Origin: Heterotrichella gracilis
Taxonomy: Eukaryota; Sar; Xanthophyceae; Tribonematales; Xanthonemataceae
Direction of reading: 5' to 3'
Assembly (NCBI GenBank): GCA_032358255.1
Contig: JAULBX010030596.1
Location: forward strand, 117,080-181,079
DNA: 64,000 bases
The notes below the pieces were generated by a model. That model made no database searches and was not told the origin of the DNA. It saw only the letters and a list, made by a program, of their open reading frames with translations. The position numbers were made by a program, and so were the translations under genes. Within the stretch, counting starts at the first letter, position 1; each line of letters begins with the position of its first letter. Positions 48 through 56,406 of the stretch are shown in pieces.

Positions 48-3000
48 CTTGATGACAAACTGCTCGTCCTCGTTTGTTGTGAGCATGACCTTGTCCACCA
101 CGCACTGCTCCCCCTGGGGCCCCTTCCATGTGAGGTGCGCGGGCTTGTAGAAGGCATCGGGCATGTGGGTGGGTGTGGTGAACACGTCGCGCGTGTTGCT
201 GGGGCTCTGCTTGTTGATGTACACCTCGCCTAGGTGGGGGGAGGGGGGGGGTCAGGAGGGTTTGGAAGGAAATGGAAACTAAATGAGATGCGACCATTTT
301 GATCACATTGGTTTTTGCACAGATGGGCAAAAAGTTTTTTATGCCTGCTTAACATGGGGTGATCACCTCTCCCGCCCAGCAGATTCTATTGCTGCCCCCC
401 AATCCCCATGCACCCCCAGAACGCACCTCCCTCTGCCCAACTCCCACACACACAGAGAGACACACACACATGGGATCACCTTTCCCCATGCGGCATGCAG
501 CAGACGGCGTCTATGGCAAAAACGGGATCTGCTTGGGGTAGCAAAGACTCTTTGCTACCCTAATCCCCACACGTCTCCCCAATCCTAAACCCTAAACCCT
601 ATAAAGTAATCCCCACCTGGGTTGATGACCTCCCCCACGCAGCAGATCCCGTCCCTGTCCAGCAGCCTGTGCTTGCCTGCGGTGCGCGCCTGAGGGCCAG
701 CGGGGGGCGCTGGCGCCACAATGCGGTCCTGGGTTCTGTTGGCGTACTTCTTCACCACAGTGCCGTACTTGCGCAGCACCACGCAGCGCCCAAAGCCGCG
801 GTCAAGGCTGGCCTGCGGGGGTGGGGAAACCAGATCAAGATACAAGACCATTATTAACTTACCATCAATTACAAGACGAACAACTTACCATCAATTTACA
901 AGACCAACAACTGACTTTTCATGTGCATCATCTTTGCTGGATTTCTCGTGTGTAACACCTTGTCTGGAAGCAATAGGGACATCCTGGGTTTGATTGGTGG
1001 GATTGTTCTACCACAGTGCAATACTGATGCAGTACCACGCAGCGGCCAAACCCTGACACCATAGATCGCAATGGAATATCCCACCCACAAGCAATAGCTG
1101 CCTTCCACCCAACCCTGCCATCACAATGGTGTCCTCCATGTCGTACCCGAGTAGTGTAGAGTTTGAAAGTCCAGGTTCAAGAATTTAGATATCAGAATTA
1201 GGGTTTACCTTGTTCATCACAATGGCGTCCTCAATGTCGTAGCCAGAGTAGTATGTAGGATTTAGGGTTTAGGGTAAGTGTTTAGGGTTCAGTGTAGGGT
1301 TTACCTTGTTCATCACAATGGCGTCCTCAATGTCGTAGCCAGAGTATGACATGACCGCCACCACCGCGTTCTGCCCTGCACCAAGCTTGTCAAAGCCGAT
1401 CAGCTCGATGGTCTTGGTGGTTGTGAGGGGCCGCTGGGGGTATGCCAGCAGGTACAGGAGGGTGTCCATGCGGCTCAGCTGGTTGTATGCGATGTTGCCC
1501 ATGGCTTGCTTGCCCATGGCGCACTGGGGGGAGTAGGGGATATGTGAGGGAGGGGTGAGGAGGGAAGGGGGAGGGGGGGTGCGAGTGGGGAGTGGGGGGA
1601 AGGGTGCTGTACATAGAGGAGTTTAGGGTTTGAGGTTCAGGGTTTAATTTATTGTGGCGGGGCGGCTCAGTAGGATCAATTGGAAAATGTTTGCCCTCAC
1701 TTGCCAGGTGGCATAGAGACATGTGCCACGAGGGCCACTCATCACAGCCACCCCACCAATCAGCCCACTTGCATGCCAAATTTGCTTAATTCCACTACAT
1801 TTGGTCATCACACTGGAATGGAAACGAGGCACAAAGAACTGCTGGGGTTCCATGTAGAGTTTTTACACCAGGAATCAGTGTTGGGCGATAAGCGCTTGGC
1901 TCGGCAAAATGCAAGGCCAACCGCTCATATCAGATGAGTCATTTGGCTACATTGCTGGAATGCATGAATAATAAAGATGAAATATATAATAATACACCAA
2001 CAGATCCCCTGCGACCTGCCGCGTAGGACCTGTCCAAGAATATGCCATGTTTGCCATAGGGTTTATAGCCAGGATTTTCCAGGCCCCACGTCTGGTAGGC
2101 GTTCAGGCAACCGGTAGTGGTGGTTGCCATAGGGTTTGATTAGGGCATTGTTAAGGGTTTAATTAGGGTTTTCAGGCCCCCGCACCTGGTATGTGTTTCT
2201 GGGCGACTGGTTGTGGTGTGGGTAGGGTATGAGCCCCGCCACCACCCCCAGGATGGTGAATGGCTCAATCTCCAGGTGGGTGGTGATGCGGGTGCACATG
2301 TCCTCGTACAGCGCCACCTGGCAGCGCAAGGGGGATCATGATAATGTTGACGAGCATGCGCTTTGCATTTTCATGGTCCAAATGTGAGAATATGTCTAAA
2401 GTGATAATACTACAGATATATTGACGATTTTGCTCGGAACACCAACTGTCATGGCAAGGGGATACGGGGGGGAGGGGAGGGGCGATACTTGCGAGGAAGG
2501 GGAGAAAGTACCAGTTGGGGGCCACATGGAAAGCAAGGGGTAGCAATGTCGAGGCAGATAAAAGGAATATCTGGAGTTTAGGGTTTAGGTGTGCTGGGGT
2601 AGCTCAGTAGGATCAATTGGAAAATGTTTTGCCCCCATTTGCCCAGAGGCATAGGGACATATGCCACGAGGGCCACTCATCACAGCCAGCCCAAAACACC
2701 TAATCCCAAACCCTAGACATTCCTCTCGCCAGACTGAAGGCACACACGCGATAAATATCCCGATAGAGGTTTTCGAGGTTCCCACTACCAAGCATAGGCT
2801 GTAGGAATTAATAGGGTTCCCCCCACCTGACAGTTGTTTTCCTCATTCACATCCAGGAACTCCACCAGTCCCTGGCGCAGGAAATCCGTGAAGGTCCAAT
2901 CCCCACTGCGCAGGTGCTACAGCAGGAAACCCCAGGTTAGGGTTTGAGCGGGGAGTGGGCCAGGATCCACCAGAAAAGGTTGCAAGCTAGGGTCAACGGC

Positions 3001-6000
3001 TACCGGAAATTGGGATTTCATTCGCTGGCTTGTGTGTTTTAGGGGTGCACTGCTGAGCTTGAGAGCATCAGATGGCATGCAATTAATCAATGCACACATT
3101 AGTGCTTTCTTGAACAAAGGCGCCAACCGCTGTATGAATGCAGCAATGACATCAGCAATCTTAAAAGTGCTTTCATTATTTTATGAATGGCATGAACAAC
3201 CCCGCCCCGCCTGCAATCCTGCACCTGTATGTGCTCCCACCTCAAACCCTAAACCCTAACCCTAAACCCTACCTGTATGTGCTCCGACCCCACCCGCGGC
3301 CGCCCCTTGTCACAGATGATGAGCGGCCGACACACGCGCCCCCCGTCGCAGGCAATGAAGCAGCAGTCCTGCTGGATGTACACAGACACGTACTCCCCCA
3401 CCCGCCCCGCGCGCCGCAGCTTTCGGAACATCTCCACAAACACCAGGGGGCGGCGGTGCACCCCCAGGATGAGGCCGTTCAGGAAAACGAGCGCGGTGCC
3501 CCTGCGCCAAAATAAGGCAATGAATACTAGAAAACCTTGCTTTATTGGCAATAAATTATTGCAGATGTACATATCGTACAGATCTTCCTCTGCTGCATGT
3601 TGTAAGCATCGTTGAGGAACACCAGCGTGGTGCCCCTGCGCCAAAATAGGGTAAATGGATGTTAGAAACCTTGCTTCATTGCATTCCTCATGTATCTTAC
3701 AAGAGATGCTACAATTCCTGCACTCTAACCACACACCAATCCCCTATTTCTGATTTTGAAATAGGTCGCAGGGTTTTGTTTCGGGGTGACGGATTTGCCT
3801 CTCCCGCCGTCCTTCCCAATTCCTACTGCAGGATCCTCTCCTGTCATCTCCCACAAACAGGCTGTCCCCACACAACCAACAACAATCCAAGAACAAAAAC
3901 GGTACCAGCACCATCACCACCACCCACCTCTCGTGCAGCTCCCCCCCGGTGACCACCCCCGCAGGCTGCACCCCCAGCGCCAGCGCCAGCCTGGCCAGCG
4001 GCCCCTCCCCCTCATCCGTGGTCACATGGGTCATCAGCGCCAGGTTCTTCACAAGGCCACAGCTCTCACCCTCGGGGGTATCGGCGGGGCAGATCATGCC
4101 CCACTGGCTGGTCTGGAGCGCGCGGGGGCCAGACACCTGCGGGCGAGCGCTTGCGTTAGGGTTTTGTTGGAGAGCTAGGGTTTCAACCAGCGCTTGCACG
4201 GCATACGCCGCACGGTGATTTCAAGCGCTGGCAACCATTGTTCCCACCTTTCATTGCGGATCATGTACAAGATCCCAGCAGGAAACCTGCATCTAAACCC
4301 TACAAAACCCTGCAGTTGCACCTTCCTGGTCTTGTCCAAACCCTAAAACCCTTACCTTCCTGGTCTTCTCAAACTGGGACGTCATGCGCGTCATCATGCC
4401 CAGCGCTGCGATGAAGCTCAGGCGGGAAAGCACCTGGAAGGGGGGATGGGACAGTTGGGTGAAAGGGTGTAAGGGGAGGTGTAAAAGGGAGAAGGTGGCA
4501 GGGAGGAAATGGAAGGAGAAAGGGTGTCAGTGAGGAAAGGGTGGAACTTACTTGGAGAGGGAGAAGAGTACATGCGCATGGAAGGCATGATGCTTGCTCA
4601 TTGCGTATGTGTCATTACCATATTTTGCTGATGCAGTTCAATCCCTAAAACAATAAGAAGAAAGTATTGAAAATGATAATAAAAAGTATGGGCAAGCGCT
4701 CCTAGCATGTGATGCCCCCAGGTTCCCTCCCCTCCCCCACCCCACCCTGCGTGACCCCCTTGCACTCCATCCTGCCATTACATCAGCACATTAAAAAACA
4801 AAAAAAGGCCCCCAAGATTCCCTCCCTCCCCACCCCCCACCTGTGTGACCCCCTTGCGCTCCATCCTGAAGCGCTTGATGGTCCAGTTCCCGCTGGACAG
4901 CGCGTGCTCCAGCCCAAAGGTGATGGTGTCGGTGCGGATGCACTTGGCAAGGTCAAACGCGCTGGCGCGGTTGGCCTTGGACAGAGACTGGTCGGCCTGC
5001 AAAGGGGGGTGATTTAGGCGCGAGCAGACCCACCACTACCACTACCAACGCATGACATCGCAACTACAACGCCACTCGCACCACAACCCACATGCTTCCT
5101 GAGGTATGCATTCATCAGGTCCTCAAACGGCAGAAACAGCATCCCATAATCCTCACCACCCACCACCACATCACCACACTCCCTCCCCCTCCATCCCACC
5201 ACAACAACAACCACCCACCTGCTTCCTGAGGTCTGCGTTCATCCTCTTGAACAGGTCCTCAAACAGCAGCGACAGCAGGCCCCCAGCCAGCTCCAGGCGC
5301 TTGTTCCCATAGTAGTCCCGGTCATCGATGAGCGCGGGGTTGGCCACAGCGGCCATCATGCGCCGCAGCATCACAGCAAGGTACAGCACCTGGGGTGAGG
5401 GGTGGAAAGTTGGAGGTGGGGTGGTGGGGATAGAGGAGGAGGGAGGGGGTTTGTGTTGTGTGGTGTGCCGCATGCGTACCGTCCAGAATGTAATGGACAA
5501 GGCTACAAATAACCCCTAACCCAGCCCCTGACCCGACCCTTCACCCCTCGCCTTAGGCTGGAAGTGGTAGCCGACCACCGGCACGTGGCACATCCTAAAC
5601 CCTAACCCAAACCCCCACCTTTTGCTGGAAGTCGTAGTTGACCACCGGCACGTGGCACACGATGACGTTTGCCAGTATGTCCCTTGCCTCATCCACCTTG
5701 GACCTTGCGCGCTTGATGTAGGGGGCCTTGCTCACCTTCACCTTGGAGCCAAGGTACTCAAGGGCCTGCGGGGGCGGGAAAAAGGCAAATTTCAATTGTG
5801 ATAGGGGTCCATTCACCTTTGCACTGCAAAATAAGGCGTGGGGGGGTTCATACACCAAGGTGCCTTTATGAATGCAATGTGGCCAAGGAGTGGGGGGTGG
5901 GCATGGGTTGGGGGGTCAACTATTGCCCTTGGTGGTCAAGATGCCAACTCCTCCCGCCCACGCCCCTACACCTGCATGTGTCACCCACCCACCCCACCCG

Positions 6001-8622
6001 CTCACCCCACCCACCAAACCCCACCTGCACCCCATCCTCCCCTCCCCCCACGTCCATACCCCACCCCACCCACGCCTTCACCACCACCCACAAGGGTAAG
6101 ATGTACTAGTCCTATCTATATCCTATTCCCCTTGCCACCTCCCACCTGCTGCATTGTGAACAGCCCCAGCCCCTTGGCCTCATGCAGCGAGGGCGCCAGC
6201 AGCGCCGCATACCCCCCCGCCCCCCCCACCAGCTCCACCACCTCCTGGTCGCTCTCCACCCCCATGGCGCGCAGCACAGCCACCACTGGCACGTCGTCCC
6301 TAAGCGGTGGGGGGTGGGCGGTGAGGGTGGTACGGGATTGGTGGGGAGGGGTATAGGCATGTTTCCGTGAGAGCCGCGGCAGGGTACTCATGCAGAGTTC
6401 ATTAACTTTTTATCATACATGCGAATCAAGCGATGCAGTACGTGGGCACAGCACTGGAGACCAGACCCAAGTGGCTCAGCAAAAACAATTTAGGAATTGC
6501 TGAGGGTCTGGATCAGGGTGTGGGGTTTAGGGTCTGTGTCAAAAGGCTTAGGGTTTTGGGTCCCACGCACTGGAACGCGTTGTGCCTCAGCAGGAAGCGC
6601 CCGTGCTTCTGCACCACGTTGGTCTTTGACTTGCGCTCGTGCGTTGAGGAGGTAACCGAGGCAAACACCTGGCCCGCACTGTCGCTGTCCACTATGATGC
6701 GGTTCTTGCTCAGCTGCTCCTGGATGAGGATGACCTTCTCGGTGCCCTGCAACAGTATGGGGTTTCAAGACTTTGATTATGAACGTTGGGGTTTTGCGGT
6801 TTTGGGGCAAAGGCTCTTCCTCAGCTGCTTTTGGGTGAGGTGCCCTGCAAAGGTTACGGTTTGACAAAATGACAATTGCATCCCCAGGATGTGTGACAAA
6901 TGCATTTCTAAAATGTGCATGCTTTTTAAGGGAAGCGGGGAGAATTGCCCAACCGCACCGTCCACTCCCTCTCACCTTGACCACAAAGTATCCCCCTGGG
7001 TCAAGTGGGCACTCCCCCAGACCTGCCAGCTCTTCCTCCCCCTTGCCCTTGAGGATACACCTGGCACAGGGAAATGAGGGGTCGGGTGGGGAATGTCCAA
7101 TTGTGTGGTGGTGCTAATCAATCAGAGGGTGAAGTGCCAACATGGAAAATACGGTAGTCGAAACCATATGCCATCATTCGTATGCAATTTCTGAGCAGAG
7201 CAATTTTGATTTCCAAAACGGCCATTCCCAATAAAATACAATGCGCAACTATTGCCCTTCCATGCACTGAAGATGAGAAAATCACAACCCCAGAGCATCG
7301 CCAGCAATCCCATCCCACTGCATCCACCCATTGCCTACCCCCCTGTTGCAGCGGACCATGAGGGAATTGTAGGCGAACATGCACTCCTCCATGTCCCGAG
7401 CGCATAATATGCCAAATCCCCTCAAAACAATGCCTATCCCCCTGTCGCAGCGCAGCTTGAGGGAACTGTAGTCGAGCATGGGCCCCTCCATGCCTACTTA
7501 ATGTGAAATGCCAACCCCAGAAACGCCTCGCAATCCCCACCCACCTGTCGCATCGCAGCATGAGCGGCAGGCGCCCGATGACCACCCCGCCCTGCCCCTT
7601 CTTCCCCTTCTTCACCACTATCTCCTTCCCCCTGGTGTACTCTATGTCCACGCTGATGGGTGCCGCGTAGGTGATGTCTCTCAGGCGGCAGTGCTGCGGG
7701 GTGATGGGCTGGACCACGTAGTCCTCCTCGATGCAGGGCTCACCCACGTAGATGTTAGTGTACCTGGCAAAACATTTCAGGCAATACAATTCAGGCGTTT
7801 TCTTTTCCATTCGTAATGGTTCAGTTTTCTTGTTAACAAATGTTTCTCTTCTCTTTAAGTACCAATTTATTCTGCGTGCTGCTCCTATAAGTACAGCCTC
7901 CCCCACATAGATATTGGTGCAATTGACTTAGCGGGTTCACCTGGCTGTGGCTGTACTAGAACGTGTGTAGCTAGTGTGAGGGGAGGTGGTTGGGGGGTGA
8001 GGGAGGAATGAGGGGCAGGGGTGGGCCCAGAATCCGGAGAAGGTGGATTGTGCAAGTCAGGGTCCATGCCGATTGGAATGTGTAGATGGGTTGGGGTTAG
8101 GCCATCTGCGTGGCCACTGGCGCTCTGGGTCCAGTTGGGAACAGTCACATGCATATGGGTGGAGCAAAAGTGCAGAAAGAGGTACCAGTTACTCGTGGCT
8201 ATCTACAGTAGAAGACTTGTTGCTTCTAACTATGTACCATCACTTCGATAGTTACAAAAGCTACTTATACTCTGCTAGGTAGGTACTAGTATAATAGCAT
8301 ATGCATGCATATGCGCATGCGTTCCTCACTTGAGGTAGAAGTTGGGGTCCGCGTCGCACGTGACCTTCTCGTTGCCCTTGGCCCGCACGATCTCCTTGAT
8401 TTCGTGGTTGATGAAGTAGTCGAACGACTCGATGTGGTGCTTGACCAGCCCCTTGACCTTCAAAAAGGCGGGGAGCAGTGCGTATTTGTCCTCGATGGTG
8501 GGGATGGGGGCGGTGAGCTTGGTGGGGTCCGCCGCCAGCATCTGCTTGACGGGGTCCAGGGGCTCGAACCCGTCCACCTCCATGTCCTCCCCCGCCCCAC
8601 CGCCGCCGGGGTTCTTCGCCAT
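48..8622 (-). CDS. RPC2: RNA polymerase III second-largest subunit RPC2 (POLR3B), 3' part outside window
   Basis: Second-largest catalytic-core subunit of nuclear RNA polymerase III (tRNA, 5S rRNA). Exons on the minus strand: 8622-8330, 7763-7545, 7060-6976, 6746-6571, 6299-6146, 5765-5619, 5389-5219, 4996-4841, 4433-4356, 4136-3928, 3501-3273, 2916-2827, 2317-2186, 1523-1305, 812-617, 229-48. All have GT-AG borders and consistent phases, giving 912 codons; about 220 residues and the stop lie beyond the left edge. Family motifs visible: [12 protein letters not shown] near the N-terminus (exon 1), [13 protein letters not shown] (exon 4), [15 protein letters not shown] (exon 7), [16 protein letters not shown] (exon 10), [14 protein letters not shown] (exon 13), [12 protein letters not shown] (exon 14), DRGFGR (exon 15). 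The exon 1 residues match RPC2 rather than RPB2 or RPA2. The start is the first ATG of exon 1. The Mg-proximal GDKF and C-terminal zinc regions are not in the window. Most introns contain decayed copies of a neighbouring exon end. Confidence 0.95.
357..390 (-). repeat. degenerate copy of RPC2 exon 15 3' end
   Basis: In the intron after exon 15, this stretch repeats the pattern of the exon 15 donor region (617-650), with several substitutions. It is not needed for the reading frame and is probably a non-coding duplicate. Confidence 0.5.
1119..1346 (-). repeat. three direct copies of RPC2 exon 14 3' end
   Basis: The real exon 14 end and its donor lie in 1297-1346. A perfect 50-bp copy lies at 1201-1250, period 96, including the GTAAACCC donor. 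A third, more diverged copy is at 1119-1153. The spacers are TTTAGGG-like. The two intron copies therefore offer duplicate splice donors and a duplicated [12 protein letters not shown]-coding stretch. Confidence 0.9.
2075..2128 (-). repeat. degenerate copy of RPC2 exon 13 3' end
   Basis: It resembles 2169-2222, the exon 13 end plus donor region (NQSPRNTYQ codons), at roughly 75-80% by eye. It lies inside the following intron. Confidence 0.65.
3615..3685 (-). repeat. degenerate copy of RPC2 exon 11 5' end and acceptor region
   Basis: It parallels 3481-3550, covering the start of exon 11, its CAG acceptor and about 40 bp of upstream intron, at roughly 80% identity by eye. It sits in the intron between exons 10 and 11. 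Together with a short copy of the exon 11 end near 3222-3242, exon 11 has decayed duplicates on both sides. Confidence 0.75.
4733..4776 (-). repeat. degenerate copy of RPC2 exon 8 3' end
   Basis: It resembles 4828-4870, the codons for MERKGVTQ plus the GTGGGG donor, with scattered changes. It lies in the intron downstream of exon 8. Confidence 0.7.
5081..5142 (-). repeat. degenerate copy of RPC2 exon 7 3' end
   Basis: Its minus-strand translation includes [14 protein letters not shown], a shadow of the genuine [15 protein letters not shown] end of exon 7 (5219-5280) with a small deletion. It lies in the following intron. Confidence 0.75.
5553..5595 (-). repeat. degenerate copy of RPC2 exon 6 3' end
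   Basis: It is nearly the same as 5617-5660, which codes for [12 protein letters not shown] and the donor. It differs at a few positions and sits inside the next intron. Confidence 0.75.
6811..6853 (-). repeat. degenerate copy of RPC2 exon 4 5' end
   Basis: It resembles 6705-6752, the start of exon 4 with its CAG acceptor. It lies upstream of the true acceptor, inside the intron between exons 3 and 4. Confidence 0.6.
7331..7493 (-). repeat. two degenerate copies of RPC2 exon 2 3' end
   Basis: Copies at 7331-7395 and 7427-7493 keep the coding pattern of the exon 2 end: [13 protein letters not shown] and [13 protein letters not shown] against the true LPLMLRCDR plus donor at 7545. The two copies resemble each other more than the exon, so the second probably arose from the first. 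Joining exon 2 directly to exon 3 restores the conserved R-C-I/V-L motif, so the copies are not exons. Confidence 0.8.
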
Positions 8623-50245: not shown

Positions 50246-53200
50246 ATGGAGGGGGGTTGGGACGGGGATGAGGGCGAAGGCAGCGACAACTCCCACCTGT
50301 ATGCGGTGCTGGGGGTCTCCCGGGAGGCGTCCCCGGAGGAGATCAAGCGGGCGTACCGGTCGCTCGCCGCCGTGTTCCACCCCGATAAGCACGCGGACCC
50401 TTCCACACACGACCAGGCTGCGCAGAGTTTTGCGCGGGTGCAGGAGGCGTATGAGGTGGGTGGGGTGGGTGCGTGCATACGCATATATATGCGTGCACAG
50501 GCGGGGTCAACGGTTAGTTTGCGGATAGGGAATAACGGTTTTACGGTTGGTCTAGTGGTCAGAGTTTGGTTTGCCGGGGGGTACGCGTGGGTTCCATATG
50601 CATGCATATATAACAATGTGTGTGGGTTCACAGGCATGCATGTATGCTTGTACGAGTGGGAAGGTATGGATGCAATTGCTTGGTGCGTTGCTGCTTTTAG
50701 GTGTGCCCAGGAGCATTCAAACTTGCACCACCGCCCGTGCAACCCCCATGCTTCCATACCCACAACCAAAACCTTCCAGGACCAAGATTAGCAGTACGCC
50801 GGATGCCCATTCCATTCCTTCTCATCCATCCATCCTTACCTTCAAAACATGCCCGTTTCACTATCACCAACCACGCACTCACAAGCAGCAGTACCAGACT
50901 AGCCGTGGAGATTGACCAGAGGGGATCAGTCAGTTGCGGGGCCTAACAGTGGGGGTTTGACCAGGGGAGATGACTCAGGAGGGACGAGAACATTGGGGAT
51001 TGCATATTAGGCATTACCTAGCAGGTGATACCTTGTGGGTCACCCAGTGTGGGTAATGACACAGCTGGTTTTTGCACTCGCGCCTGTGCACCACTCGAAT
51101 GAAAACAAGAATTAAAATTTTATATGAGTACCCGCTAAGAAACCACAGGCAATGCACGGGCACCAATCCTTACCCCCCTTGGCCCTCCACCCCCCCCAGA
51201 TCCTGAACGACCCCTCACAGCCCCCACACCCCTCCTTACCCCCCTTGCCCCCCTCCCCAGATCCTGAGCGACCCCTCCCGGCGAGGGGTGTACGACGTGT
51301 ATGGGCGGCAGGGACTGGAGGCGGGGATGCAGATTGGGGACAAGCTGCGCAGCCGGGAGGAGCTGCGGGAGCAGTGGGCAATTTTCCAAAAACTGCAGGT
51401 GGGTGGCGCTAACCCTGCCAAACCCTAAACCCTACACCTGGAGAGGGTGCTGTCCACACGTGCAAGCCTCACCGCCGCCCCCGCATCGCCGCTACCCCAC
51501 CACCATCGCCACTACTGCACCACCGCATCCACCCACCCCGCGCCCCAGCCACCCCACCACTGCACCCACCCACCCTCCACTGGAGGATTGGCGCATGGAG
51601 CAGGCCATCACCACCACCAGCCACTACCTGTTAAATTGAATTGTATGCGTCTCCCTCCCCTGGTGGCCCCACAGACACTGCACCAAATCTTGCCCCAAAT
51701 ACGCCTCCGCCCACCCCATCACCACCCCTGCATTCACATATGCCCGACCCCCACCCACCCAACCCCCACCCCCACAGGAGGAGCGGCGCATGGAGCAGGC
51801 CACCACCAGCCGAGGCCACTATGTTTTTCGCATTGACGCGTCCCCCCTGCTGGCTCCAGAGCGGGCAGAGGAGGCAAGGGAACGCGAGGCGATGAAGCAC
51901 CCGATACTCAGCCAGGTAGATAAAATAAATAAATAAATAAATATGTACGATCACGAGCCATGGAACAATGGGCTCGCTTGCAGGACGCACAGAAGATATT
52001 TCTTATTATAAATCACTAATTTAATTTAAATTATATTTGTTTTCTCCTTATATCTTAGTTTTTACAATTCACATGTTCCCATCCTTCCGCCCCGCAGCTC
52101 CTGATGCGCGGCGGCACCCTTGCGCCCCTGAGCCGGTGGCCGCAGATGGGCGGAGTGGCCATGACCTCATCCATGGACATGCAGCTGTCGGAGTGGGACA
52201 GCGGGAACGCAGGGGGTGAGTGTGTGTGGGGGAGGAGAGGGGTGTTGTTCTTATCGGCTCACCTGCTTGTTGGGGTGGGACAGTGAGATTGCAGGGGGTG
52301 AATGTCGCCGCCCTGCCTTGCTGGGGCCTGTGTGAGAGGGGGGGGGGTGAGGGGTAATTGAGGGATGTGCGAGGGGGTGGGAGGGGGATATCCTTGCATG
52401 TTGAGGGATGTGCGAGGGGGTGGGAGGGGGATATCCTTGCATGCTTGTGAAGGTGTGTGGGAAGGGGGCGGCGCTGGTGACTGGCGTGAGGCTTGGGTGA
52501 AACTTTTCACGGTGAAGGGCTCACTTGAACGTTGACCCACTTGGAAGGCAACGTAAACATGCGTGGTCATGTGCGCCGGAACCCCACACCATGCATGGCA
52601 GCTGTACACATTGCACATTCATGCACCCGCCCTCCGGTCGACCCTTGGACCAAGGCTGATTCAAACACTCCACGCGCACACATCCCACCCACCCACACAC
52701 GCACACGTGCCATGCGCCTGCCTGCCCCCTTTCAGCACTTAACTTCCAAAGCCCCCCCACCCCCCACCCACCACCCACCCCATCCCCCACCGGCTGCAGG
52801 TCAAGTGGTGATCAACCGGCGAGGCAGCGGCAGCAGCTTCGTGGCTGGCTACCGGAGGATGCTGTTCCCAGATCTGTCTCTGGAGGCGCATGGCATGCTG
52901 GGTGAGGCGAAACAGTGTGTAGGCTTGACTGTTGAATAGCGCATGGTCCCTGGCCTGTGAGGCGAAACAGTGTGCGTGTGTCGACTATGGAACAGCGCAT
53001 GTTCCCTGCCCTGTGAGGCAAAACAGTGTGTGTGTTGACTATTGGCTAGCGCGTGGTCCCTGACCTGTGAGGCGAAACAGTGTGTGTGTTGGCGCATGCT
53101 GTTTTTGGATCTGTCTGTGGAGGCGCATGGCATGCTGGGCGGGGCAAAACAGTGCATATGTATCGACTGCTAAAGTAGCGCATGACCCCCAGTATTATCT

Positions 53201-56200
53201 GTGTAGGGTTCAGGCATGCGCCCTCCTCCATTATTTGCCACTCCCCCTTGCCATTCCCCCGCACTCTCCCCAAAGATTTGCCGTATGTGTCCATTGCAGG
53301 CCTGAAGACCCTTTTGAGCCTCCAATCCACGCAGCAGCTTGGCCCGCACGCGTCAGCCACCCTGTCGCTGAGCTGGCAGCCGCAGGTTGGGGTGGGGATG
53401 GAGCTGGTCACGTCGAGACAAATTACTCAAAAGGTGGGGACAGCTAGGTTCGTTCGTTTCCAGAAAAGAAACTTCCCAACAGCACTTCCTCACCTGAAGA
53501 CATGTTTCTTGGGGGGAAGTTAGTGTAGTCCCTGTGTGATCAGCGGGGATGGGAGGTGGAGGAGAGCATGTGGGCTGAAAAGCAATTGGGCTGTCGGTGG
53601 TGTTGTTGCGATGCAAGCTTTCTCTGTATACCACATTCACACACCTGGCTCATACTTGTGTGCATTGCAGGTGCTCTGGAGGTCCAGGTGCCTGCTGGCT
53701 AAACCCTAACCCTGATTCTAAATACCCTTGTGCATGCGACTCACGTGCCTGCTGTCATGCCGTACGCCGCAACCCCCTTCTGTGAACCTAAACCCTAAAA
53801 TCCTGAGCCCTGAACCCTAAACCCCCCTGCTGCAGCTGACTGGGGAGCTGTCTTGGGTCCTTGGGCCCCCTGAGGCAGGTGGGATGGGGCTAAGCCTGGT
53901 TAGGAGGGGAGAAAAAACCATTCTGACGGGCCAAGTGCAGGTATGTGAGTGTGTGTGTGCCTGGCACCACTGTTGTGCAGTGTGTGTTGTTGCTTTGCAT
54001 GCCAAACCGCCTTGACATCACTACCTGCTGGGGGGAGCAATTGCTTTCGCTACCCACCCTGGCCCCTCGTGACCTGCATATCTCATGTGTGTACTCTTCA
54101 GCTATGCATATTTTGAATGCTTCAAATATCTGTATATCTGCCTTCCTAAGGTGACAGTCGTGACTGGCATCTGTCTCTATTTGAAGAGTACCTTTTTTCC
54201 CTATATTCATGCCCCTCGTATCCAGGTGGGCGTCGCGACTGGCATTTCAGGGCGGGTGGTGCGGCGGGTGGGGGAGAATTATAGCGTCAAGGTTGGGGCC
54301 AAATTCGGGACCACCGGGGTGGAGCTGGATGTGGGCGCATCCATGCGCATTTCTGAGACCACCAGCGGGGGCATGTCTGTGGTGTGGGGCATGCAGGTGT
54401 GCTGAAGGAGGGGTGAGGGGGCCATGTAGGTGTGTTGCCAATGGGGGAGGGAGTGAATGTTGGTGCGCCGGCAGGGGGGTGAATCGGGGTGGGGTGTGTG
54501 CCATCCCACTGGGAGGCATGCCAGTGTGGGGATTGAGGTTTTAGGGTAATATGGGGTTTTGAATTGCTTGGGCCTGCTGGGAGGTACAGGGCAGTCTTTG
54601 CCAAGCTGGCATGACGGACAGCTGCGCTTGTCACAATAGCCGCAGGGTGACAACCCAGTGGGTGCGTAAAGCAGTTGGGGCAAAATGTCTCTGTCAGAAA
54701 GGGCTACTGCGTGTCAAATGCGCCGCAAACGCCCCACGGGAATAGTACTAAGGATACCAAGGGTCTCATTGCGCTTTTAAATTTGCAGGGCATCACCTTC
54801 AAGGCCAGGATGGCACGGTCAGGCAACGTGTTCGAGTTCCCCGTATTATTGTCCCCTTCCTACCAAGACTACAGGATCCTGGTGGCCTCCTATGTGGTAC
54901 CCCCCCTGCTGTCGCTGGCAATCAACTATGCAGTGGTCAAGCCGGTGGTGCGGTACCGAAAGCGGCTAAGGGTAAGGCACAAAACCCTAAAAATCCTAGT
55001 CCTCAAACCCTGAACCCAAGCCAGAGATTAGGCATCACACCACCCGTGCCGTGCTCCATCCACATTGACTCTCCTTTAAAACAAGGGGAGTACTTTATCA
55101 GCAGTTAGGCTTGATCACCAGCATGATGAGCATTGGGAGCACAAGCACAATCAGCTCACGCTTACAAAAGGGGTTCAAGTTTTGGGGATGCCAGTCACCA
55201 GCACACACATTCTGTATTTTTTATTAGGTTTTTATTCACCTTGAAGCCCTCCTCTCATCCACCCCCAGGCGCAGCAGCGGCGAGCGGGCAAGGCCAGTGA
55301 AATCACCAGCGCCCTGCGGGAAGCCAGGCGCACAGCGACCCTGGTTGCGCCCGTGGCGCAGCGCAAGCTGGGGCGGGAGATGGCGGAGGGGGGGCTGGTG
55401 GTGGTGTCTGGGGAGTATGGGATGCTGGAGGAGGGGGCGGCGGGGCGGGTGCCGTGGCCGGCGGCAGGGGGGGGCGCGGGGGCGGGTGGGACGGGGAGGG
55501 GGGAGCGGGCGGAGGATGAGGAGGGGAGTGAAGAAGGTGCGGTTGTGTGTGGGGGGGACTGGTGGCTCACCCTGGGTATTGAATCCGTGGTGTGGGTGGC
55601 AGTGGAACAGTGTGCTTTGGAGAAGTATATATACATGGTGTGTTGTCAATACAAAATGAATTTCTTGTTTTGCTTTATACCTTGCAATAAATGAAATTTA
55701 CAGAATAACAGGTGTATTTTTACAAAACAACAGATCTTTCCCTTCAATATGCTGTTGCTTATGTGGGTGTGGTCCTCCCCAGGTGATGAAGCCGCAGCGG
55801 CCTCCACAGCCGACCTCCCCCACACACTAGACGTCACCATCCCCCTGCGATTCATGGTGGATAAGGGGACCCTGCACTTCTACCCAGGTAAGGCATTGCA
55901 CCGACAAGGAAGGGGAAACAGGCCTGTAGGATGTTGGATTAGGTAACCCCGAGCCAATCAGGGGCTGCTTCCACCAATGATGTTATAACAGGCCACGCAC
56001 TCCTGCCCTCGCATTGAAAACCTGCTGCCAAGCGCCAACCCCAGATCTCCCACAGCAGACTCGTATCCTACTCGTTTCACCTTACTTCATCTCATTTTCC
56101 CTATCAGAATTTTGCTAAAGATGATATATTTTAAACTTTTGGCTATACACAGTTAGATTAAGGCCCCCATTCCCCCTCCTCCCAGATGTGTCCAAATCCG

Positions 56201-56406
56201 GCCTCATGGGCTTCTGCGACATTGCGCCCGGGGCGCCCAAGCAGCTGCGGGTGTGTTACCTGTGGAGGGGCAAGCCGCACGAGGCGCTGGTGGGGGACAG
56301 CGCGGGGGTGGAGCTGCCGGGGGGCGGGGCGCCGGTGGCGGACCCTGTGCGCGCGGCTGCGGTGATGGAGTCTGCTCGGGAGCAGGGGCTGTTGCCGGGG
56401 GCTTGA
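50246..56406 (+). CDS. DNAJC11: DNAJC11, mitochondrial J-domain protein with DUF3395
   Basis: J-protein associated with the MICOS/SAM bridging complex that shapes mitochondrial cristae in animals. Twelve exons (50246-50455, 51261-51398, 51778-51915, 52098-52215, 52800-52901, 53300-53433, 53836-53940, 54226-54396, 54789-54971, 55269-55536, 55783-55887, 56186-56406) join in phase to 630 aa (human 559). Residues 17-70 are the J domain: [20 protein letters not shown], then FHPDKH with the HPD triad. Then the DNAJC11 hallmark [16 protein letters not shown], a beta-rich central region (GTLAPLSRW to [14 protein letters not shown]), a charged helix ([16 protein letters not shown]), a Gly/Glu-rich insert (about residues 470-510), and the DUF3395-like end ([33 protein letters not shown]). 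Several introns carry decayed exon copies. TGTAA occurs at 57097-57101 and 57160-57164. Confidence 0.92.
51190..51232 (+). repeat. degenerate copy of DNAJC11 exon 2 5' end
   Basis: It matches 51250-51285 (polypyrimidine tract, CAG acceptor and ILSDPS codons) with few changes; it lies just upstream of the real acceptor. Confidence 0.8.
51576..51630 (+). repeat. degenerate copy of DNAJC11 exon 3 5' end
   Basis: It matches 51778-51825 ([13 protein letters not shown] codons) in altered form, in the intron before exon 3. Confidence 0.7.
52269..52443 (+). repeat. copy of DNAJC11 exon 4 end and a 43-bp tandem repeat
   Basis: 52269-52303 resembles the exon 4 end and donor (52188-52222). A perfect 43-bp direct duplication follows at 52358-52400 and 52401-52443. 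Confidence 0.85.
52902..53140 (+). repeat. 55-bp tandem repeats starting at the DNAJC11 exon 5 donor, plus exon 5 copy
   Basis: Units begin with GTGAGGC(G/A)AAACAG at 52902, 52957, 53013 and 53067 (periods 55, 56, 54); the first GTGAGG is the real exon 5 donor. The fourth unit runs into 53095-53140, a copy of the exon 5 end ([14 protein letters not shown] codons). Confidence 0.9.
54148..54168 (+). repeat. short copy of DNAJC11 exon 8 start
   Basis: A GTGACTGGCAT-containing stretch echoes the exon 8 start (54226 onward, GTCGCGACTGGCAT), upstream of the true acceptor. Confidence 0.45.

Follow-up and report, generated by a model that had tools for sequence, protein, structure and literature searches.

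In mammalian genomes, interstitial telomeric sequences were inserted at double-strand breaks, and their insertion has been attributed to telomerase acting in repair (Nergadze et al., 2007; PMC2246262). As tabulated there, 6 of 130 rodent and 4 of 25 primate telomeric insertions come with a duplication, which is thus a minority outcome. Pieces of the telomerase RNA adjoin some of the rodent arrays. Land plants carry telo boxes, short TTTAGGG-type motifs for which an action of telomerase at free 3′ ends has been proposed (Gaspin et al., 2010; PMC3022908); that study places telo motifs near or below expectation in the introns of Arabidopsis and rice, with a commoner occurrence in the first two Arabidopsis introns and a clear excess in the 5′ untranslated regions (UTRs) of rice. 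Here we describe a 64-kb stretch of an algal genome of 68.5 Mb in 903 contigs, namely bases 117080–181079 of contig C804 (hereafter the window), in which introns of RPC2, the gene for the second-largest subunit of RNA polymerase III, contain copies of the ends of their own adjoining exons, some of them separated from the original by telomere repeats. The genome is that of a green alga: chlorophyll a/b-binding proteins give 43 matches in it, and the nearest Protein Data Bank chains to a CP26-like fragment are of the CP26 type, as found in green algae.

Direct repeats of 4–30 bp (mean 11.4) at or near exon/intron borders have been explained by break repair (Rogers and Bendich, 2025; PMC11782384). 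The repeats reported below also lie near such borders, and break repair is again invoked; however, that work matches one border (5′) against the other (3′) and reads the repeats as marks left by intron insertion, whereas the copies here are longer, lie inside the intron and derive from one border. Double-strand break repair has likewise been proposed for gains of introns with short repeats in Daphnia (Li et al., 2009, cited in the review PMC3488318). Break repair is the proposed source of intronic DNA in both cases, with the difference that the Daphnia introns are new, whereas here existing introns appear to grow. Long introns are also a feature of the core-Reinhardtinia green algae, in which median lengths of 198–343 bp occur without a short peak; Craig et al. 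(2021; PMC8226300) leave open what causes this. The introns sampled here have a similar length (median 329). Judged by titles and the beginnings of abstracts, none of the open-access papers listed in searches on the subject appears to link telomeric filler to the duplication of exon ends within introns, which is not proof of absence. We take the combination to be a variant of known repair and intron-growth processes.

Exon-end copies inside introns

RPC2 is encoded on the minus strand. A model built manually from its splice signals, in which the last exon is left open-ended, has 20 exons and 19 introns, of which exons 1–16 and 15 whole introns lie in the window and the remaining four exons in the adjoining piece L030. 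The 912 spliced residues encoded in the window align with Protein Data Bank (PDB) chain 7a6h_B in a single stretch (32–912 to 12–882, 1120 bits) without any copy-sized insertion, which places the exon-end copies outside the protein. A second PDB RPC2 chain, 5fj8_B, also aligns with it in one piece. These chains are human and yeast RPC2, respectively, and given the one-piece alignment with both, the gene model is sound within the window.

Probes consisting of an exon end (up to 90 nt) and the adjoining 12 nt of intron were aligned to the exon's own intron, with 200 dinucleotide shuffles, the other introns of the gene and the reverse complement as controls, and a copy was called at a score of at least 18 that none of the 200 shuffles reached. 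Copies were called in 12 of the 15 introns inside the window and in 13 of 19 across RPC2, on the donor side in introns 2, 5, 6, 7, 8, 9, 11, 13, 14 and 15 and on the acceptor side in introns 3, 10, 14 and 17. At a score of at least 22, 9 of 38 pairs of an exon end with its own intron were retained, against 0 of 684 pairs with other RPC2 introns. A sequence-only reading of the window had claimed such copies in at least nine of the 15 introns and proposed comparing exons with their own introns against shuffled introns; the count stood up to that comparison, and all 11 places it had noted hold a copy of the adjoining exon end, the noted starts falling on or at most 6 nt from the copies found. Further copies came to light in intron 9 (4304–4341), intron 11 (3215–3244), the acceptor side of intron 14 (982–1053) and intron 17, which lies a little beyond the window. 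The signal in introns 1 and 19 is marginal (their score is reached by 1 and 2 of 200 shuffles, respectively), and introns 4, 12, 16 and 18 gave no convincing exon-end copy in the own-intron alignment test.

Most of the RPC2 copies contain the splice junction, as had been proposed, and some intron sequence as well. Their identities range from 62–69% at the low end to 100% at the top (1199–1250 = 1295–1346), which fits the earlier suggestion of a continuing process. The features, in window positions, are as follows.

48–8622, minus strand: RPC2 gene within the window, from splice signals and protein alignment
8330–8622, 7545–7763, 6976–7060 and 6571–6746, minus strand: RPC2 exons 1–4
6146–6299, 5619–5765, 5219–5389 and 4841–4996, minus strand: RPC2 exons 5–8
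4356–4433, 3928–4136, 3273–3501 and 2827–2916, minus strand: RPC2 exons 9–12
2186–2317, 1305–1523, 617–812 and 48–229, minus strand: RPC2 exons 13–16
352–397, minus strand: intron 15, copy of the exon 15 end (615–660), 74% identity by own-intron alignment
About 580–600: intron 15, telomeric repeat between copy and original, CCCTAAA at 590
982–1053, minus strand: intron 14, copy of the exon 15 start (727–797), 76% identity, by repeat search and alignment
1119–1148, minus strand: intron 14, older third copy of the exon 14 end, 90% over 30 nt, a further 96 nt away
1199–1250, minus strand: intron 14, perfect 52-nt copy of the exon 14 end including the donor site (1295–1346), 96 nt from the original
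1251–1294, no strand: intron 14, telomeric filler (TTTAGGG units and variants) between the perfect copies
2081–2139, minus strand: intron 13, copy of the exon 13 end (2174–2232), 68%, with telomere-like filler between
3215–3244, minus strand: intron 11, copy of the exon 11 end (3265–3292), 83%
3242–3271, no strand: intron 11, telomeric filler abutting both copies; flank score 16, below the cut-off of 20 used for arrays (see below)
3610–3681, minus strand: intron 10, copy of the acceptor, exon 11 start and intron sequence (3476–3547), period 134, no telomeric filler
4304–4341, minus strand: intron 9, copy of the exon 9 end (core 4320–4339, original 4354–4373), with telomere-like gtaagggttttaggg at the donor between them
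4736–4774, minus strand: intron 8, copy of the exon 8 end (4829–4868), 90%, no telomeric filler
5080–5141, minus strand: intron 7, copy of the exon 7 end (5207–5277), 76%, no telomeric filler
5543–5592, minus strand: intron 6, copy of the exon 6 end (5611–5659), 86%
5593–5614, no strand: intron 6, telomeric filler between copy and original
5958–6049, minus strand: intron 5, weak copy of the exon 5 end (6135–6225), 62%; the weakest to pass, with a score of 18.5, reached by 0 of 200 shuffles (best 18.0)
6812–6846, minus strand: intron 3, copy of the exon 4 start (6701–6736), 81%
7329–7461, minus strand: intron 2, two older copies (7329–7362 and 7428–7461) of the exon 2 end (7531–7564), spacings 99 and 103
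7875–7919, minus strand: intron 1, marginal copy of the exon 2 start (7717–7760), 69%, its score reached by 1 of 200 shuffles

Repeats of another kind were also seen. Most of intron 16 (L030:3850–3989, or window −150 to −11), in which the own-intron test gave no exon-end copy, consists of an internal tandem duplication whose period is about 65 nt. Introns 12 and 13 have a piece of about 100 nt in common (window 2592–2700 and about 1659–1755, 89% identity), and telomere-like sequence adjoins both. An interspersed element was considered as the source of this 109-nt piece and rejected, as a genome search gave just these two places.

Genes beyond RPC2 were predicted with a home-made gene finder, first trained on RPC2, of which it recovers 19 of 20 exons exactly (RPC2 being its starting gene). 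The main sample of 268 kb consisted of C2:1–200000, the window and L030. Weak intron penalties yielded a few giant genes and were rejected as settings, and merging of 12 zero-length exons left 243 introns in 29 predicted genes. Exon-end copies occur in 65 of these 243 introns, compared with 32 of 3645 length-matched swaps; Markov introns gave 37 of 4860, and the own introns, once reverse-complemented, 3 of 243, so that exon ends resemble their own introns well above the level seen with introns of other genes. The sequence-only reading had thought such copies unusual for one essential gene. They are not peculiar to it, being present in 52 of 224 introns of 28 other predicted genes (41 of 102 in the high-scoring genes without RPC2), yet RPC2 is richer in them (13 of 19, Fisher p = 9e-5).

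Seven genes taken as supported have copies in 37 of their 84 introns. Searches support RPC2, a Sec24-like gene, a decarboxylase, an ABC1 kinase and a DNAJC11-like gene; for the sixth, DUF819, the model is a dubious fusion that contains an internal stop; the seventh, C2_18, was counted only for its presumably WD40-like look. Pfam searches with six predicted proteins or parts of proteins returned Sec23/Sec24 domains, a PLP-dependent decarboxylase, an ABC1 kinase, DnaJ and DNAJC11 domains, DUF819 and LysR-type domains. The predicted DNAJC11-like gene occupies 50246–56406 on the plus strand of the window, encodes DnaJ, beta-barrel and C11 C-terminal domains, and has copies in 4 of 11 introns (models before the merge). 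The LysR-type domains, helix-turn-helix and substrate-binding, were found in the first 383 residues of the product of a predicted many-intron nuclear gene at C2:164284–170673 (pieces L026 and L027), a bacterial type of regulator in an alga; by eye, the gene has a second, similar half.

A scan independent of gene models detected 143 local direct-repeat pairs, some overlapping, in the 268 kb, compared with 0 in resampled sequence. Set against the gene models before the zero-length-exon merge, 60 of the 143 pairs join an exon to its own adjacent intron (mean 26.6 under shifts, with 0 of 500 shifts reaching the observed number), and 18 have both members between genes, where the shifts predict 57. 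This intergenic shortage is partly one of detection, because non-conserved copies decay faster. Alignments of most exon-end copies in the sample run past the junction, and copy-bearing introns are longer than copy-free ones (median 398 vs 301, p = 2e-4).

Decoy splice sites, which the copies had been expected to supply, are indeed left by them: the duplicated donor GT survives in 30 of 40 cases and the duplicated acceptor AG in 16 of 23, where general decay predicts 27.7 and 16.0, respectively. With retention so close to the decay prediction, there is no sign of decoy-site purging. Junction copies that retain AG|GT mimic zero-length exons, of which the gene finder produced 12, and are formally recursive splice sites.

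The sequence-only reading had linked tandem duplication across splice junctions to intron gain as well as growth. As a route of intron growth, junction-spanning local duplication is well supported; as a route of gain it is not supported. Tandem duplication of an exon piece containing AG|GT is a model of intron gain, and we consider it highly improbable that this process, or mobile introner-like elements, gave birth to new introns here. Three apparent birth signatures were recorded before the exon merge, as 3 of 255 intron tails matched the upstream exon tail at a score of at least 15 (0 of 2432 controls), but they stemmed from the gene finder, which had mistaken the AG|GT of decoy copies for exons of zero length, and all three cases were gone after the 12 such exons had been merged. 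Among the 243 introns of the corrected set, the gain signature anchored at splice sites is found in 0 tails and 1 head, the latter an intron whose head equals the head of the downstream exon in the unverified gene model C804_5. Exon ends rarely match introns of other genes (the 32 of 3645 above), and the repeated 109-nt intronic piece is limited to two places in the genome. No convincing case of the birth of a new intron was found.

Telomere repeats at intron ends and between copies

The sequence-only reading overlooked the short telomeric arrays that often lie between a copy and its original, a filler that points to a repair mechanism. A two-unit telomere word, CCCTAAACCCTAAA, has 5629 matches in the genome (overlaps counted), compared with 5 for the reversed control. 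Perfect seven-unit CCCTAAA arrays are present on 11 contigs, in six of them at base 4–138 in the orientation of a left chromosome end and in the other five in the opposite orientation. Because these terminal arrays are correctly oriented, TTTAGGG/CCCTAAA is the true telomere repeat of this alga, and the intronic arrays are built of the same unit. A telomerase RNA-binding domain (PF12009) is encoded in the genome. The sequence ATGCATGCAT, with 13 occurrences, is among the commonest 10-mers of the window.

Telomeric blocks number 10.6 per 10 kb in introns, 0.7 in exons, 0.4 in the kilobase upstream of genes, 2.5 in the kilobase downstream and 1.7 in far intergenic DNA, densities that depend on the predicted annotation, in which UTRs and missed genes fall into the intergenic class. 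Since arrays were counted on their own, their excess in introns is independent of the conserved copies. The genome resembles those with land-plant telo boxes in holding many short internal TTTAGGG-type motifs, and differs from Arabidopsis and rice (PMC3022908) in that introns are the richest compartment and the upstream kilobase the poorest. A concentration 5′ of genes like that of telo boxes was not seen: the kilobase before predicted coding regions (UTRs not being annotated) has 0.44 blocks per 10 kb, and introns have 10.61.

Inside introns, the first 50 nt hold 2.96 blocks per kb and the middle 0.67; for the seven supported genes the figures are 4.52 and 0.83. Blocks also crowd the last 80 nt. 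It seems quite unlikely to us that arrays arise evenly by break repair and that this crowding is an edge effect, with neighbouring exons blocking deletions and intergenic arrays being lost. Near donors neither strand is preferred, the first 50 nt of introns having 18 blocks on the G strand and 18 on the C strand, as would be expected of passive relics; against this, mid-intron density is still above that of intergenic DNA, where 110.8 kb hold 18 blocks (about 0.16 per kb), and a deletion bias leaves unexplained the exon-end copies that flank arrays.

The acceptor end does have a strand bias, C-strand blocks (CCCTAAA in the sense direction) making up 23 of 26 (p = 9e-5), with 3 on the G strand, and all five arrays between a copy and an acceptor are C-strand. 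These observations would suit telomeric motifs kept at intron ends for splicing, for example CTAAAC as a branch site or a C-rich tract near the acceptor. Yet the donor end, where crowding is strongest, is without bias, and selection against stray AG on the G strand accounts for the acceptor bias equally well, so that we rate a splicing role as distinctly improbable. The bias can be due to selection against AG-bearing G strands, to the C strand serving as branch site or pyrimidine tract, or to telomerase priming on the G-rich antisense of the pyrimidine tract.

Arrays lie between direct repeats far more often than controls. When 120 nt on each side of an array were compared, 15 of 58 arrays in the 268 kb had similar flanks at a score of at least 20. 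Cross pairs reached this score in 14 of 3306 cases and random places in 74 of 2000; since a cross pair sets a flank against that of another array, it partly controls for telomere-like sequence inside copies. A second sample, the first 20 distinct places outside C2 among the matches listed (17 other contigs), gave similar flanks at 12 of 20 longer arrays and 8 of 380 cross pairs. The remaining arrays lack detectable flank repeats. An exon-overlapping copy is present on one side only in 11 of the 15, on both sides in 1 and on neither in 3. Conversely, telomeric 9-mers occur in 23 of the 143 direct-repeat spacers (4.7 expected, maximum 13 in 200 draws), and in 14 of 46 cases filler separates the donor from its copy (control mean 4.8, maximum 11).

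Like mammalian insertions (PMC2246262), the arrays are short, consist of the genome's own telomere repeat and sit at discrete internal sites with duplication-like flanks, target duplications being recorded in some of the mammalian cases. Unlike them, the flanking repeats accompany the shares of arrays given above for the two samples, and the arrays are concentrated at intron ends.

Break repair as a probable source of intron growth

We favour, at a rough probability of 0.63, the reading that small break-repair duplications near exon edges lengthen introns in this alga. Either two nicks or a break whose ends are widely staggered would occur near an exon end; both single-stranded ends would be filled in and rejoined, and about 20–90 bases would thereby be duplicated. 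Sometimes telomerase, or a process that copies its product, may first add a few TTTAGGG units, which would leave the order copy, telomere repeat, copy, and the same repair without telomere addition would leave a plain tandem duplication. Where the duplicate spans a splice junction, use of the outermost junction would yield correct mRNA and the inner copy would become intronic, free to decay while the exonic copy is conserved. Recurrence at one junction could produce several copies of different age. A junction-spanning duplication would thus be tolerated because its inner copy is spliced out, and introns would grow as copies decay, which fits both the survival of decoy GT and AG at the rate of decay and the greater length of copy-bearing introns. 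Transcribed exons may break preferentially, repair may be targeted to exon edges, and selection may sort the events that survive. Vaughn and Bennetzen in 2014 and Schiml et al. in 2016 reportedly described tandem duplications arising from nicks and breaks in plants.

Several observations weigh against this account. At a flank score of at least 18, the two samples together give 29 loci, and in 13 of them telomere-like sequence occurs elsewhere too, past one of the copies in 7 and within the copies in 6 (where it raises the score). An unconfined array of this kind is consistent with repeated events or with a unit that was duplicated together with its array, and a single filler event does not call for it. 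Most exon-end copies have no recognisable telomeric filler, and filler between copy and acceptor (5 of 28) is not above the control (mean 1.9, maximum 6). Joint ageing should make array purity follow copy identity, and no correlation was found (n = 28, rho = −0.17, p = 0.38). No non-telomeric 9-mer that could represent a piece of telomerase RNA is common to more than 5 of 127 blocks. The array as a ready-made donor, hinted at by RPC2 introns 6, 9, 11 and 14, was tried and rejected, AG preceding GTAGGGTTTAGGG at 123 of 1679 places (7.3%) vs 8.0% for any GT; in the sample analysed, AG precedes GTAGGG at 25 of 181. Breaks occurring anywhere do not predict array-poor intergenic DNA. The comparison is also within a single genome, the second copy standing in for an empty ancestral site; the introns and genes are predictions of the home-made gene finder; and the whole sample is one 200-kb contig stretch, the window region and 20 small pieces of the 68.5 Mb.

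The same 13 loci (among them RPC2 intron 14, L043, L052, and L045 and L051, where the telomere-like sequence extends past one copy), together with the majority of duplications that lack telomeric filler, are what would be seen if slippage or unequal exchange made the short tandem duplications and pre-existing arrays at intron ends fell inside the duplicated unit by chance. Pairs or short series of AGGTAGGGTTTAGGG 41–106 nt apart, which recur in the genome (contigs C51, C52, C61, C75, C203, C217, C300 and C377, among the first 100 of 123 places), also favour slippage, and their recurrence suggests repeated duplication of array-bearing units. Duplicating such a unit, however, leaves an array after each copy, and so the 16 of 29 loci in which the array is confined between the copies weigh against this alternative, the tightest being RPC2 intron 6, C2:141010, L038, L040 and L044; all of these but L044 are noted as having an array that touches or nearly touches both copies. 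We regard slippage as unlikely, if far from negligible. The break-repair reading and its alternatives are not fully exclusive.

A stronger form of the break-repair reading is possible but on balance doubtful: that telomerase-assisted repair of breaks, preferentially at the exon edges of transcribed genes, is a main engine of intron lengthening here, steadily depositing telomere repeats and exon-end copies and leaving decoy or recursive splice sites.

The origin of intronic DNA is a long-standing problem, and decay has left most growth events unreadable. In this genome, events of widely differing age can be seen together, ranging from a perfect 52-nt copy to faint remnants, each with the conserved exon as a built-in ancestral reference, and the telomeric filler names a candidate enzyme, which makes the mechanism testable. 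The window also suggests a candidate cause for the long introns whose driver the core-Reinhardtinia study left open (PMC8226300). If true, telomerase repair at exon edges could account for the unusual length of introns in some green algae.

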